Of a DNA stretch of 64,000 nucleotides, positions 10,294 through 15,396 are shown piece by piece; the first letter of the stretch is position 1; each line of letters opens with the position of its first letter. The notes below the pieces were generated by a model. The model saw nothing but the letters and a program-made list of their open reading frames with translations, ran no database searches and was not told the origin of the DNA. The DNA is from Ilumatobacter coccineus YM16-304. GTDB taxonomy: Bacteria; Actinomycetota; Acidimicrobiia; Acidimicrobiales; Ilumatobacteraceae. The stretch is taken from the NCBI RefSeq assembly GCF_000348785.1, contig NC_020520.1:620001-684000 (forward strand), in the 5' to 3' direction. Both the position numbers and the translations under genes were made by a program.

Positions 10294-11346
10294 TCACCCT
10301 GGCCCGCCGGTGGCCACCACGTCGAGCGCCCGCTCTGCCGTCGCTCGCAACGCCGTCGTGTCGTCGCCGGTGTCGAGGGAGTACACCTGCGTCGTGCTGC
10401 CGAGTCCGATGTCGAACGCGCCGACGTCGGTGATGCTCCACTGCTGCTTCGCCGCCCGCTTCACCGCCTCGGTCATCAGCACCGGCGTGTCGAGCGTGCG
10501 GGTCAACGCCTCGAGGCGCGCCGCGGTGTTCACCGGCTCGCCGATGATCGTGTAGTCCATCTTCACCGACGACCCCATCGACCCTTCGAGCACCGGGCCG
10601 AGCGCGAGTCCGAAGCCGCTGTACAACAACCGAAGTGGACTGTGCGGCGGAACGTCGTCGCGCGCCTTCTTCAGCCCGAGGAGGATGTCGGCACAACTCT
10701 GGATGGCGCTGTCGGTGAGGTCGGGGTCGAAGTAGGCCATGACGCCGTCGCCGAGGAGCTTCGTCACCTCGCCGCCGCGCCGGGCGATACCGGTGCAGCA
10801 GATCTCGAAATAGGCCGAGACGAGTTGTGACACGTCGTCGATCGGCAGCCGATCGCTGATCGCCGAGAACGCGACCATGTCGGTGAACATCACCAGGCGA
10901 TCAGCCTTGTGGAGCGGCACGTCGAGCGGGTTGAGGCCCTGACGCAGAATCCGTGACACGGCAGGCTGGGTGTAGCGCTCGATGATGTGCTGCGCCTCAC
11001 CCATTCGCCCGAGCAGGAGCTTCATCGGGCCGACGACATCACCGTCGAGATGGTCGAGATCGAGCACGTTCATCGACCAGTCCGGGAACAGCCGCTCGGC
11101 GATGCCGTGCTCGGTTCGGAGACAGATGATGTCGGTGTGGCGATCGTCGCCCAGGACGCGACGGTAGAGATCGTCGATCGCCCACTCGTCGCCCTCGATG
11201 ATCTGGAAGAAGACATCGCCCAGGGTCAACAGCACACCGCTGATTCCGTCGGCGGCATTCCGTCGCGACGAATCGATGCCGATCTGATCGATCTCGCTGC
11301 GGTCGAGCGGTCGGGCGAAGGCGCTCATGTAGGTCATCCGCTTCAC
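10294..11346 (-). CDS. BLUF-domain adenylyl cyclase, bPAC-like photoactivated cyclase
   Basis: 350 residues from GTG 11346, placed by an AAGGAGG site 8 bp upstream; 350 is also the length I recall for bPAC of Beggiatoa. The BLUF domain (1-95) keeps the flavin photocycle residues Tyr6, Asn30, Gln48 (VFFQIIEG), Trp90 and Met92 (FPDWSM). After a helical linker, the class III cyclase domain (about 145-340) has metal Asp156 and Asp200, adenine-selecting Lys196 and Thr266, Asn273 and Arg277. The stretch MGSSVKMDYTIIGEPVN nearly matches bPAC. It should make cAMP from ATP in blue light, in the cytosol. It is divergent from the DAC-domain gene. Confidence 0.93.
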   Translation of the reverse strand: MKRMTYMSAFARPLDRSEIDQIGIDSSRRNAADGISGVLLTLGDVFFQIIEGDEWAIDDLYRRVLGDDRHTDIICLRTEHGIAERLFPDWSMNVLDLDHLDGDVVGPMKLLLGRMGEAQHIIERYTQPAVSRILRQGLNPLDVPLHKADRLVMFTDMVAFSAISDRLPIDDVSQLVSAYFEICCTGIARRGGEVTKLLGDGVMAYFDPDLTDSAIQSCADILLGLKKARDDVPPHSPLRLLYSGFGLALGPVLEGSMGSSVKMDYTIIGEPVNTAARLEALTRTLDTPVLMTEAVKRAAKQQWSITDVGAFDIGLGSTTQVYSLDTGDDTTALRATAERALDVVATGGPG

Positions 11347-11379
11347 TGCCGCCACCTCCTTCGGTCACCGATCAGGTCG

Positions 11380-11385: not shown

Positions 11386-11507
11386 GTGCCTCACCTCTCG
11401 CTGACTTCGAGCAGCGGGATCACGGTGTGGCAGTGGTGTCCGACACGTCGAGTCGGATTCGGTCGATGTGCGGTCGCCGGACGCCAGGCCCGCAGTACGG
11501 TCGGCTC

Positions 11508-12512
11508 GTGACACGATGGGATGCCCACGAGCTGCCCGTCCTTCCCGGACGGCTGCAACGCCTCGCCGACGAGCTGAACGAAGAGGCCTTGCCCGCCCTC
11601 GACGGAGCGTCCGATCCGGTCATCGCACTCGTCGAGCTGGCATACGCCCTTCGGCCACACCTGCACGAAGGACGCGTCCCGTCGTACGGCGTGCTGCTCC
11701 CTCCCGGCCCGATCGCCGACGTCGTCTCGGCATCGGCGGCACTCCACACCTCGGTCGATCTCATCGGAGCTCACGACCTCGATCTGAAGTTCGCTCGCCG
11801 CTTCGCCGATGGGGTGACGTCGTTCGGCGTCAGGACCGACGACGCCGTCGACCAGCTCGCATGTTTCGATCGGAACATGTCCGACGAACACGACCTGGTC
11901 GGGCTGCAGGCAGCGATCGGCGGGCTCATCATCCAGCGCCACCCGGCCGGTGAGGTTCGGGTCTTCGGGCCGGCCGGCGTGGTCAGGTGGAACGGAACCG
12001 GATGGCACCACGACGTTCCGATGAACGCCTGGATCGCGCGCCTCTCGACCGTCGCTCCCGACCTCCCGGTCGGTGGGGTGCGCCCACTCCTGCGCTTCGC
12101 GATCCACAAGCTCGGCGGGCATCGCATCGGGGCGACGCTGATCTGGCGGCCGACTCCACACGCCGTGCCGCCGCATCGACACGAATCGCTCATCCACAAC
12201 GCACCGCCGCTCCGAGTCGGCAAGGTCGGAGAAGAGGCCGCACTCGCGCACGCGCTCTCCCAGACCGACGGCGCAGCGGTGTTCGACGGCACGGCCACGC
12301 TGACCGCGCTCGGAATCCGGCTCGCCCCGTCGTCGGTCGCCGAGCAGTCGATCAGCCCGATCGGGGGCATGCGTCACACGTCCGCGCTCCGCTACTCGCA
12401 CGACGACCCTCACTCGATCGTGATCGTGGTGTCGGAGTCGGGGCCGGTGACGCTCATGCACGCCGGCCGGGCAATTACCGAAGCCGACCCCGCCGACGAG
12501 ACCATCGGCTGA
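11508..12512 (+). CDS. DAC (DisA_N-type diadenylate cyclase) domain protein
   Basis: 334 residues from GTG 11508; an alternative GTG at 11427 would add 27 residues. The C-terminal 85 residues carry the DAC signatures: D254-G-A in TDGAAVFDGT, then IGGMRHTSALRYS and SIVIVVSESGPVTL, which parallel the DGA and GTRHRAA...IIVSEETG blocks of CdaA/DisA. The usual RHR is R289-H290-T291 here, so activity is uncertain. The N-terminal 210 residues are soluble and unlike DisA or CdaA; they may be a sensor domain. Product, if active, would be c-di-AMP. Divergent from the BLUF cyclase. Confidence 0.75.
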   Translation: MTRWDAHELPVLPGRLQRLADELNEEALPALDGASDPVIALVELAYALRPHLHEGRVPSYGVLLPPGPIADVVSASAALHTSVDLIGAHDLDLKFARRFADGVTSFGVRTDDAVDQLACFDRNMSDEHDLVGLQAAIGGLIIQRHPAGEVRVFGPAGVVRWNGTGWHHDVPMNAWIARLSTVAPDLPVGGVRPLLRFAIHKLGGHRIGATLIWRPTPHAVPPHRHESLIHNAPPLRVGKVGEEAALAHALSQTDGAAVFDGTATLTALGIRLAPSSVAEQSISPIGGMRHTSALRYSHDDPHSIVIVVSESGPVTLMHAGRAITEADPADETIG

Positions 12513-12647: not shown

Positions 12648-13058
12648 ATGACCGAGAGCACCGATGCGACCAGCTTCATCCGCAGCGCGATGCCACTGTG
12701 CGACACGCTCGGCATCTCCGCGATGGCCATGACGCCAGAGCGCGTCGAACTCACCATGGACTGGACGGACGCGCTCTGCACGAGCGGCGGCCTCCTGCAC
12801 GGTGGCGCGCTCATGGCGCTCGCCGACTCGGCGGGTGGAGCGTCGGCGTTCCTCAATCTCCCCGAGGGAGCCACGGGCACCTCGACCATCGAATCGAAGA
12901 CCAACTTCCTCGGCGGCGTCACCGAGGGCTCGGTCGTGGCGACAGCGACGCCGCTCCACGTCGGGTCGACCACGATCGTCGTCGAGACCGAGATCCGCCA
13001 CGAGCAACGACTCGTCGCCAAGGTGACCCAGACCCAGGCGGTCCTGCGGCCGCGCTGA
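12648..13058 (+). CDS. PaaI-type hotdog thioesterase
   Basis: 136 residues from ATG 12648, preceded by GGAGGA. The hotdog fold motif GGLLHGGALMALADSAGG (about 46-64) carries the His-Gly-Gly of the PaaI/YdiI branch, with the catalytic acidic residue expected on the following helix (Asp near 60). FLNLPEG...TIESKTNFLGGV and a C-terminal beta strand complete the fold. It should hydrolyse an acyl- or aryl-CoA thioester in the cytosol. A -10-like TAGCGT just upstream of 12606 fits a short leader. Confidence 0.9.
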   Translation: MTESTDATSFIRSAMPLCDTLGISAMAMTPERVELTMDWTDALCTSGGLLHGGALMALADSAGGASAFLNLPEGATGTSTIESKTNFLGGVTEGSVVATATPLHVGSTTIVVETEIRHEQRLVAKVTQTQAVLRPR

Positions 13059-13075
13059 CGACGCGCCAGGGCCCG

Positions 13076-13103
13076 CGAGTCGCGTCGAGGCCGACGCGAC
13101 TCG
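13076..13103. terminator. 12-bp stem hairpin between convergent genes
   Basis: CGAGTCGCGTCG at 13076-13087 pairs perfectly with CGACGCGACTCG at 13092-13103 around the loop AGGC. It lies midway between the convergent thioesterase (ends 13058) and the UGSC gene (ends 13136). There is no T-run, but a strong GC stem at this site suits a bidirectional terminator in this GC-rich genome. Confidence 0.65.
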
Positions 13104-13135
13104 GCACGACGCGACCTCCTCGGCTTCGGACGCCG

Positions 13136-14863
13136 TCAGAAGATGCCGCAGACGAGGTCGGTCGAGGTCGACCGGTCGATCGTGCGGGCCGTCCAGTCGC
13201 CGTGCGGCCCGTCGTTGCTCAACACGTACGCGTTGGTCCGCGTCGGATCGCCAGCGACTGCGATGGCGAACTTCGACGGGTCGGTCACGATCGGAACCAG
13301 GCGGTCCGGGTCGCCCGACTCGGCGAACACGGCGGGCACGTGGCCGGCATCGGCCAACTCGACGAGCGTGCGGCGCCCCGAGGTGAGGTTGCTCCACTCG
13401 CCGATCAGCTTCTCGAAACGCCACGCCGGGATGCGCGCGTGCTCGAACAGTGCGGCGCGCACGTCGTTCTTCGACCATCCGGCGGCGGCGAACATGCGAG
13501 CGATGATCGGCGACACGACGAGCAGCGGTCGATACTGGGCCTGGCCCAACCCGTACACGTGGGTGAGATCCCATCCGCTGATCCGCGCCAGCCCGTCGGC
13601 GAGGTAGGGGACCACCTCGTCGGGGGACGAGCCGAAGACGCTGCCGACGATCGCCCCCGAGTTGAAGCGCGCCATCGTCAGCACGTCGTCGGTGCGGTCG
13701 AAACCGAAGTCGGCCGCGAGCGGTCCCCAGCCGATCTCGGCGAGGGCGTCCATGTCTTCGGCGAGGACGACGCGGGCCGAGTTGCCGAACGTCGCCTTGT
13801 CGTGTTCGTCGGGAGTGAAGCCGAATACGTTGCGCAGGAACAACCGCAACCAACGACCGACCGTGGTGTTCGCGTGGTGCCCGTCGCGCAGCGCACCTTG
13901 GCCGTGGTTGAAGCCGAGGTCGTTCACCGACGGACCCGACACGATCATCAACGCGTCGGCGCCCGTCGTGTTGCCCGAGTGCTCTGCTCCGTAGCGCGGA
14001 TCGAGCAGGATCTGTGCCGCGGAGATGAGGACCGGGAGGTGTGCCGGCTCGCACCCGGCCATCACCGCGTTCACCGCGATCGACCAGATCGTCACGTCGC
14101 GACCCGACGACGGGGCGATGCCGAGTCGCTTCCACGGGTCGTGCGCCGTGACCGCGATGAAGTCGTCGACGCGCTCGCGGGTCGGCGGGATGAAGGGCAT
14201 GCCATCGCACCAGCCGTGCGCGAGGTACGTCCGATAGATCTCGTCGATCGTCCCCGACGCGGCGACGTCGAGCGCGCTCGGCTCGGCAACCTCGGCGTCG
14301 CCGACCGCGACGGGTTCGGTCAGGCCGGCGACGATCCGATCGACGGCGATCTCGCGCACGTTGGCGAGCAGTACGTCGCTCGACTGCGCGTCGACGTGGC
14401 CGGGGAGCACGGCGAGCGGCAAGCCGTCGAAGCCGTGCCCGCGACCGGTCGCGGCGGCCTGGGTGACGAAGCCTTCGCACACGATCGACACCGAGGGAAT
14501 GCCGGCTGCTTCAGCTGCGATGGATGCCCGCATCACGGCGGGCGTACAGCTGCCTCAACACCCCATGGCGGAGACGACGGCATCGATGTGTCGATGCGTC
14601 AACCCCTCCGCGAGCCCGGCGACCATCTCCTTCTCGTCGGCACCGTGCGTGTTGCCGAACTCGTCGTAGCCGACGATGTCGACGGTCGGGAAGCGGCGCC
14701 GCAGTTCGGCCTCGACCTCCGGAAAGACCTCGTCGCCACGGAACAGGAAGTCCCACAGGAACGCGACACGCTTGCCGTCGAGCGTGTCGAGGCGAGGAGC
14801 GAGCGCTGTCTGCTGCACACCTCGGGGGGACTTCGGCCAGACCACGTCGTACGTCGACTCCAT
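13136..14863 (-). CDS. UGSC-family selenoprotein, in-frame TGA read as selenocysteine
   Basis: Two adjacent frames join as one 575-residue protein if TGA 14555-14557 is read as Sec103. The junction reads SAMGC-U-GSCTPAVMRAS, that is C102-U103-G-S-C106, the motif that names the UGSC family. The N-terminal domain (1-100) begins LAPRLDTLDGKRVAFLWDF; the downstream domain has GWCDGMPFIPPTRERV, AVNAVMAGCEPAHLP and NTTGADALMIVSGPS, all intact. A SECIS-like hairpin follows the TGA. A redox-active Sec/Cys centre is inferred; the reaction is unknown. Start ATG 14863 leaves an 80-bp divergent promoter spacer; GTG 14872 and 14920 are alternatives. Ordinary gene callers will split this gene or call it broken. 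Confidence 0.85.
14526..14543 (-). promoter_or_regulatory. bacterial SECIS-like hairpin after the selenocysteine TGA
   Basis: On the mRNA, GCCCGC (14543-14538) pairs perfectly with GCGGGC (14531-14526) around the loop CGUGAU. The loop begins 18 nt after the UGA and has G as its second base. Known bacterial SECIS rules ask for a short stem with a G near the start of a small apical loop, about 16-37 nt from the UGA, and this meets them. It should recruit SelB with Sec-tRNA; those genes are not in the window. Confidence 0.7.
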
Positions 14864-14929
14864 GCGGCCCACTCTTGCACGACGGACCTGGTAGCCGCTG
14901 GCGTAGTTCGCGCCGATCACGGCTGATCG

Positions 14930-14943: not shown

Positions 14944-15396
14944 ATGGATGACGTCGATCGTGCAATTCTCCACCAACTGCAGGTCAACGGTCGAATCGCC
15001 AACAACGAGCTGGCGGCGATCGTCGGACTGAGTCCGTCGTCGTGCCTCCGACGCGTTCGCAACCTCGAGGCGACGGGCCTCATCACGGGCTACGTCGCGC
15101 TGCTCGATCGCGATGCGGTCGGTAGCGGCTACGAGGCGCTCGTGTGGGTGACGCTGCGCGAGGTCACCCGCACCACGATGCTCGACTTCGAAGCAGCGAT
15201 CGCCGACGCTCCCAACATCACCGAGGCCAGCAGGATGATGGGCCAGCCCGATTACCTCCTCCGCGTCGTCGCCGCCGACGCCGTTGCGTTCGAGACGCTG
15301 TACATGGACGTGCTCGCCACGCTGCCGCACGTCCAACAACTCACCTCGCAACTCGCGATGAAGGTCGTGAAGCGCTCGACCGCCCTGCCCCTCTGA
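14944..15396 (+). CDS. Lrp/AsnC-family transcriptional regulator
   Basis: 150 residues from ATG 14944. The N-terminal helix-turn-helix is MDDVDRAILHQLQVNGR then NNELAAIVGLSPSSCLRRVRNLE, typical of the family, and the C-terminal RAM ligand domain (about 65-140) ends in the oligomerisation strands. Such proteins sense amino acids or related small molecules. It is divergent from the UGSC selenoprotein gene and may control it; this is inference from layout. Confidence 0.92.
   Translation: MDDVDRAILHQLQVNGRIANNELAAIVGLSPSSCLRRVRNLEATGLITGYVALLDRDAVGSGYEALVWVTLREVTRTTMLDFEAAIADAPNITEASRMMGQPDYLLRVVAADAVAFETLYMDVLATLPHVQQLTSQLAMKVVKRSTALPL

Follow-up and report, generated by a model that had tools for sequence, protein, structure and literature searches.

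UGSC selenoproteins, together with a fusion of UGSC to a domain called Unknown_1, were reported in 2008 from an ocean survey, in which the UGSC domain was thought likely to be thioredoxin-like (PMC2398784). The family is represented by the models PF24696 and NF041046 (selenoprotein, UxxC). Glycine reductase (GrdB) and D-proline reductase (PrdB) are described as working through Se-C bond cleavage and a pyruvoyl group (PMC10298544). FarB/FarE has been proposed for fluoroacetate reduction, in which FarE lacks both of the cysteines that making a pyruvoyl group requires (PMC10838667). The available portions of the open, non-preprint literature (PMC2398784, PMC13188914, PMC9312934, PMC7539508) draw no link between UGSC and either PrdB/GrdB or a flavoprotein.

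The window, by which we mean the whole 64,000-nucleotide stretch of Ilumatobacter coccineum YM16-304 DNA that was analysed, contains one such fused gene on its minus strand, with the following parts.

13136..14863, minus strand: UGSC-CTD fusion gene for a selenoprotein of 575 aa, Sec103 included (from the frame, Pfam and relatives)
14555..14557, minus strand: in-frame TGA, almost certainly Sec103 of MGC-U-GSC (from the relatives' alignment and the sel machinery)
14318..14845, minus strand: UGSC domain, residues 7-182 (from Pfam; Rossmann-like model; probable distant kin of the PrdB/GrdB Sec domain)
13139..14296, minus strand: CTD, residues 190-575, in which Cys271 is near-invariant (a gene of its own, or thioredoxin-fused, in other places)

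The frame from 14863 to 13136 starts with ATG and ends with TGA, has no TAA or TAG, and has as its sole internal stop the TGA at codon 103. A sequence-only reading that preceded this work had taken two minus-strand frames to be one frame broken by a single TGA at 14555-14557, and reading the frame bears this out. The TGA lies in the context VVSAMGC-U-GSCTPAV, which supplies the U/C-G-S-C motif of the UGSC family by way of the in-frame UGA, and the predicted product has 575 aa and ~61.5 kDa with Sec (GC3 0.89). PF24696 matches it at 112.6 bits (cut-off 25) over residues 7-182, across the TGA, and the NCBIfam equivalog NF041046 scores 57.4 bits, under its curated cut-off of 125; residues ~190-575, the CTD, have no Pfam match above cut-off. 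The earlier reading had envisaged a downstream domain of ~460 residues; instead, UGSC spans the TGA and the second domain occupies ~385 aa within the 472 post-TGA residues. A 742-codon plus-strand frame (12698-14926) that overlaps the fused gene was rejected, with selection by codon-position GC favouring the minus-strand pieces. We conclude that the fused gene almost certainly encodes a genuine UGSC-family selenoprotein with a second domain, the CTD, and that both the family and a UGSC fusion were already known.

The codon 103 TGA is almost certainly read as selenocysteine, judging from its relatives, the hairpin that follows it and the Sec machinery of the host. Some part of the protein is matched at E<=0.001 in 150 of 298 genomes of the host order (own included), and the same-order comparison covers the best 30 loci of those matching. 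Besides the own copy, 27 loci align as one piece at 51-70% identity, all 27 with the TGA; two further loci, aligned in two pieces, also carry it, and in L055, a distant fused protein of the same order at 29% identity, the site is Cys. The earlier reading had proposed that Cys-containing relatives would align at the TGA, and they do: of 116 aligned fused rows, some of which repeat a genome, 104 have U at the site and 10 have C; the one row with G is a degenerate second copy in the Lachnospiraceae locus L125, and the one row with A a spurious second alignment in L055. Rumen copies have Cys at the Sec site. Across the same rows Cys106 is conserved in 114 and Cys271 in 112, and the latter is the sole CTD Cys column conserved above 40%. 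Cys102, an extra Cys directly before the Sec of the window protein, is likewise found in 61 of the 116. The wider scan, for which the best 80 loci were listed, reached Actinomycetota, Pseudomonadota, Chloroflexota, Acidobacteriota, Bacillota, Bacteroidota and Thermodesulfobacteriota, although these phyla were taken from record labels, some of which look doubtful (Bordetella parapertussis for several bins). All 69 fused proteins scanned match PF24696 at E<=0.1 (best 3.4e-34).

Several of these loci merit a word of their own. The second fused copy in L125 (2385-4028) has neither Sec or Cys at the site nor Cys106 (GVGGGASGAAA), and is perhaps a non-redox paralogue. On Paracoccus ferrooxidans plasmid pFER4 (L076, 8941-10598), a UGSC-CTD pair lies within ~8 kb of selA and 4 kb of selB, and the annotated UGSC gene stops at its own UGA. 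On the conjugative IncP plasmid p2-T1 of Acidovorax sp. T1 (L073, 8640-8930), an annotated hypothetical protein stops at the UGSC TGA, and this Sec-type UGSC-CTD gene lies a few kb from IS1071.

Bacterial SECIS elements are hairpins that follow immediately on the UGA and carry G as the first or second base of the loop. The window has a candidate of this type, and its loop has the G in that position.

14526..14543, minus strand: SECIS-type hairpin GCCCGC-CGUGAU-GCGGGC, 6 bp, with the apical loop opening 17 nt downstream of the UGA

The 76 nt that surround the UGA in the window itself do not fold unusually well (z -0.07), and the case for the hairpin thus rests on comparison. Of 89 Sec sequences (window excluded), 73 can form the complete set of six pairs. 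In an alignment of 63 of the 90 available sequences, from which 16 similar ones and 11 with a differing hairpin were left out, 98.7% of cells pair, versus 33-53% in slid controls. Covariation in this chosen set is thin: in five sequences both bases of one pair are replaced (G-C to A-U), and three of the six pairs are invariant. The columns hardly vary, which makes the shuffle control weak (98.7% paired versus 97.5% when shuffled; the number of co-varying pairs was matched in 253 of 500 shuffles). The Arg codon at Sec+9 is more telling. Counting only rows with the motif and with Arg there, 54 of the 59 Sec rows use CGG, where ~15 would be expected from each gene's own Arg codon use; both Cys rows use CGC, and in these two Cys genes the hairpin does not fold. 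At the level of sequence, we regard this synonymous-codon constraint as stronger evidence of recoding than the covariation. In nine loci (L140, L144, L146, L149, L116, L126, L129, L143 and L147) the six pairs of the window type do not form after the UGA; in the first four the hairpin appears, by eye, to have moved by about three bases.

The host also has the means to decode such a gene. The sequence-only reading had predicted SelA, SelB, SelC and SelD, and all four were found in a profile search of the whole 4,830,181-base contig, each with its best match above the curated cut-off: selA at 413 bits (cut-off 268), selB at 275 (242), selD at 369 (125) and tRNA-Sec at 66.5 (47). The selD gene (C1:2441028-2441951, minus) itself holds an in-frame TGA (GAG-U-GCK), and the selenophosphate synthetase of this host is probably also a selenoprotein. 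The genome has three UGSC genes, each with one TGA: the fused gene of the window, one that adjoins a thioredoxin-CTD gene and one that adjoins a CTD gene. Two PrdB-like selenoprotein genes (L230, C1:313489-314109, minus; L231, C1:1392057-1392656, plus) have an in-frame TGA and a U-P-x-C motif; they score under the PrdB cut-off, in a genome with no detected PF09338 proprotein, and match the UGSC HMM poorly (8.4 and 1.1 bits). YM16-304 is a marine aerobe (PMC3910706), and the terms 'selenocysteine', 'selenoprotein' and 'selenium' are absent from the accessible text of its genome paper (PMC3910706).

What the Sec-bearing domain is related to is suggested by several profile comparisons. Among the 69 fused proteins, matches at E<=0.1 were obtained to PrdB in 38 (best 3.3e-5), GrdB in 14 (best 7.5e-5), GrdF in 12 and GrdH in 11; the window protein itself reaches 10.4 bits against PrdB (E 0.32; family cut-off 300). 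When a UGSC-domain HMM was run on translated clostridial loci, the top 18 matches were PrdB or GrdB frames, at E 6e-6 to 1.8e-9 in a small database that makes E-values generous, and their Sec (Cys in four) aligned on the window-type Sec; the next match was a GrdE, at E 0.095. By hhalign, the UGSC domain gave 96.6% with PrdB and 95.7% with GrdB, a weak signal with GrdE (15.8%), 0.8% with PrdA, and at most 0.2% in reversed controls. These comparisons support a distant homology between the UGSC domain and the Sec-bearing domain of PrdB and GrdB; the low scores of the host's two PrdB-like genes with the UGSC HMM, and the weak PrdB match of the window protein itself, speak against it.

The whole-protein model has a pLDDT of 92, and its N-domain consists of alternating beta-alpha units whose second-look matches are Rossmann-like at Z about 10 (PurE: Z 10.3, rmsd 2.8, 123 aligned). 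In the PDB copy searched by sequence, PrdB has no evident relative; its top match, a designed spike fragment at E 1.2e-4, was taken as chance. When the fused alignment was searched against PDB sequences, Hsp104/ClpB was all that came up, at E 0.017 or worse.

The CTD (model pLDDT 92.4) is also found as a separate gene beside UGSC, and in 14 of 79 loci the fused gene has a second, same-strand CTD copy no more than 700 nt away. In some relatives the CTD is preceded by a thioredoxin-type domain, whose profile finds PDB thioredoxins (best E 5.8e-6; all of the 60 matches listed, of 124, are thioredoxins). We considered the CTD as a relative of GrdE or PrdA that forms a pyruvoyl group from Cys271, and rejected this at the sequence level: hhalign gave 0.2% for GrdE and 0.1% for PrdA, and HMMER was unconvincing. 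PF09338 matched one of the 69 fused proteins, at E 0.039. A profile search of the own genome for the PF09338 pyruvoyl proprotein gave no match; its positive control comes from another class, where 38 of 291 genomes searched in this way gave one. Pyruvoyl chemistry is not simply transferable to this protein, since its CTD shows no sequence relation to GrdE or PrdA and no PF09338 partner was found in its genome.

Gene neighbourhoods offer a second view of electron supply. In the scan, a flavoprotein of ~305 residues (Pyr_redox_2, thioredoxin-reductase-like, mostly with a C-x-x-C-D motif; CAWCN in L092) was found near the fused gene in 14 of the best 80 loci listed and in two of five plasmid loci (L075, L077), counts made with an HMM built from 6 of these 16 loci that had first been noticed among neighbours. 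It usually adjoins the fused gene or its CTD partner, and in L110 it is 3 kb off on the opposite strand. In the own genome it finds two strong matches, about 32% identical, from which about one or fewer chance neighbours in 80 loci would be estimated; the second of these (L226), beside an AhpC-like gene, looks like AhpF. Together with the thioredoxin-CTD fusions, these arrangements support a genetic linkage of the family to thioredoxin-type donors. No flavoprotein or thioredoxin gene was found beside the window gene, and none of 20 same-order neighbourhoods holds the flavoprotein; the window gene therefore probably uses the general thioredoxin system.

The immediate neighbours of the window gene are a regulator on one side and, on the other, a 4HBT thioesterase gene that converges on it.

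14944..15396, plus strand: Lrp/AsnC-type regulator, divergent, adjoining the selenoprotein gene (from Pfam)

Among 28 loci from Acidimicrobiales or related actinobacteria (some of which repeat a genome), 7 keep this regulator beside the gene, at 62-71% identity; among 10 other loci, none does. For the wider neighbourhoods, 171 ORFs were chosen and 134 scanned with Pfam. No family had more than two members among the 60 same-order neighbour proteins. TctC organic-acid binding proteins account for 9 of 64 neighbour proteins elsewhere (3 of 10 picked by hand) and for none of the 60 same-order ones, among the 25 of 67 families listed. We give the TctC hint low weight because such genes are common in Betaproteobacteria, and regard what AsnC and TctC suggest about a substrate as circumstantial. 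Elsewhere in the window two second-messenger genes lie side by side, a fusion of BLUF (a blue-light sensor) to a nucleotide cyclase adjoining a DACNK-DAC diadenylate-cyclase-like gene (10294-11355, minus; 11427-12512, plus).

We think it reasonably probable that this is a Sec-decoded UGSC-CTD protein in which the Sec/Cys pair cleaves an activated bond of a small substrate and is re-reduced in thioredoxin fashion; that is, a thioredoxin-fed Sec/Cys reductase that would act on a small organic or amino acid. UGA103 is almost certainly decoded as Sec by SelA/B/C/D with the hairpin just downstream, and Sec103 and Cys106 would make a selenol/thiol pair. The selenolate may then attack a carbon-heteroatom or other activated bond of the substrate, which, as a guess, could be held between UGSC and CTD, with Cys271 perhaps taking part. 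A selenenylsulfide with Cys106 would form, and thioredoxin or a thioredoxin-reductase-like flavoprotein would restore the reduced pair. In relatives the donor could be the thioredoxin domain fused to the CTD or the flavoprotein encoded nearby, and in YM16-304 it is likely to be the general thioredoxin system. The divergent AsnC-type regulator may control expression. The earlier reading had called the reaction of the family unknown; the PrdB/GrdB homology and the thioredoxin links now narrow the type of reaction.

A bolder version of this proposal, which we hold tentatively and would sooner bet against than for, is that UGSC and CTD together form a branch of the glycine/proline reductases that tolerates oxygen and does without pyruvoyl. 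In such a branch the CTD would replace GrdE/PrdA as substrate activator, and thioredoxin (through the CTD fusion) or a neighbouring flavoprotein would feed C-X cleavage in a small acid. It would be widespread in bacteria, including aerobes, with a Cys form in haloarchaea.

The protein could instead use its Sec as a thiol peroxidase, a disulfide reductase or an antioxidant enzyme of a general kind, fed by thioredoxin and acting on a peroxide or disulfide with no C-X cleavage. We consider this unlikely but worth serious attention, since the UxxC motif, the thioredoxin domain on the CTD and the thioredoxin-reductase-like neighbour would all suit such an enzyme, and the 2008 survey, in the part available, marks UGSC as a thiol oxidoreductase homologue or thioredoxin-like fold (PMC2398784). 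The nearest detected relatives of the Sec domain are nevertheless PrdB and GrdB, and the best matches of the model are Rossmann-like, though still compatible with a thioredoxin relation. TctC among the proteobacterial neighbour proteins (9 of 64) also speaks against it, though these genes are common in those taxa. It is less probable still that the CTD is the main catalyst, as a hydratase, lyase or cyclic-amide hydrolase for example, and that the Sec domain merely regulates or protects it. In a Foldseek search with the CTD, class I fumarate hydratase did head the list, followed by 'Toblerone' cyclic-amide hydrolases (best E 1.7e-4), but we rejected a fumarase or Toblerone fold, with an rmsd of about 17 Å in the fumarase alignments and a best second-look Z of 4.8, and the one conserved CTD Cys column (Cys271) leaves no three-Cys cluster site visible. 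Finally, although the standard code ends the frame at residue 102, a pseudogene, sequencing error or true stop with a 102-residue product is scarcely credible: several phyla contribute to the 116 fused rows, of which 104 have the same TGA and 10 have Cys, and the hairpin, the synonymous constraint and the complete Sec machinery point the same way. The earlier reading had likewise argued against a pseudogene.

The gene bears on annotation as well. UGSC enzymes of this kind are hidden in public genomes because annotated plasmid genes, those of Acidovorax T1 and Paracoccus pFER4, stop at the UGA, and the window protein falls under the cut-off of the NCBI naming model (NF041046). What goes beyond the literature covered is a likely function: through the ties to PrdB/GrdB and to thioredoxin, what was an 'unknown redox protein' would gain a reaction type open to assay.

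Compared with the UGSC family as described by PF24696 and NF041046, the window protein has the same domain, motif and Sec position, but it scores under the NF041046 cut-off, is fused to the CTD and has Cys102 before the Sec. Like the UGSC/Unknown_1 fusion of 2008, it joins a UGSC selenoprotein to an extra conserved domain; from what is available of that survey, Unknown_1 is likely to be the CTD (PMC2398784), which here spans several phyla. Its Sec-bearing alpha/beta region is distantly homologous to that of PrdB of D-proline reductase and GrdB of glycine reductase, and the UxxC motifs coincide in the alignment. In contrast to those systems, it lies far under the PrdB cut-off, its CTD shows no sequence relation to GrdE or PrdA, their proproteins, and its host is an aerobe (PMC3910706). 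For a reductase of this lineage that would work free of pyruvoyl, FarB/FarE, as put forward from genomics and expression, provides a proposed precedent (PMC10838667).
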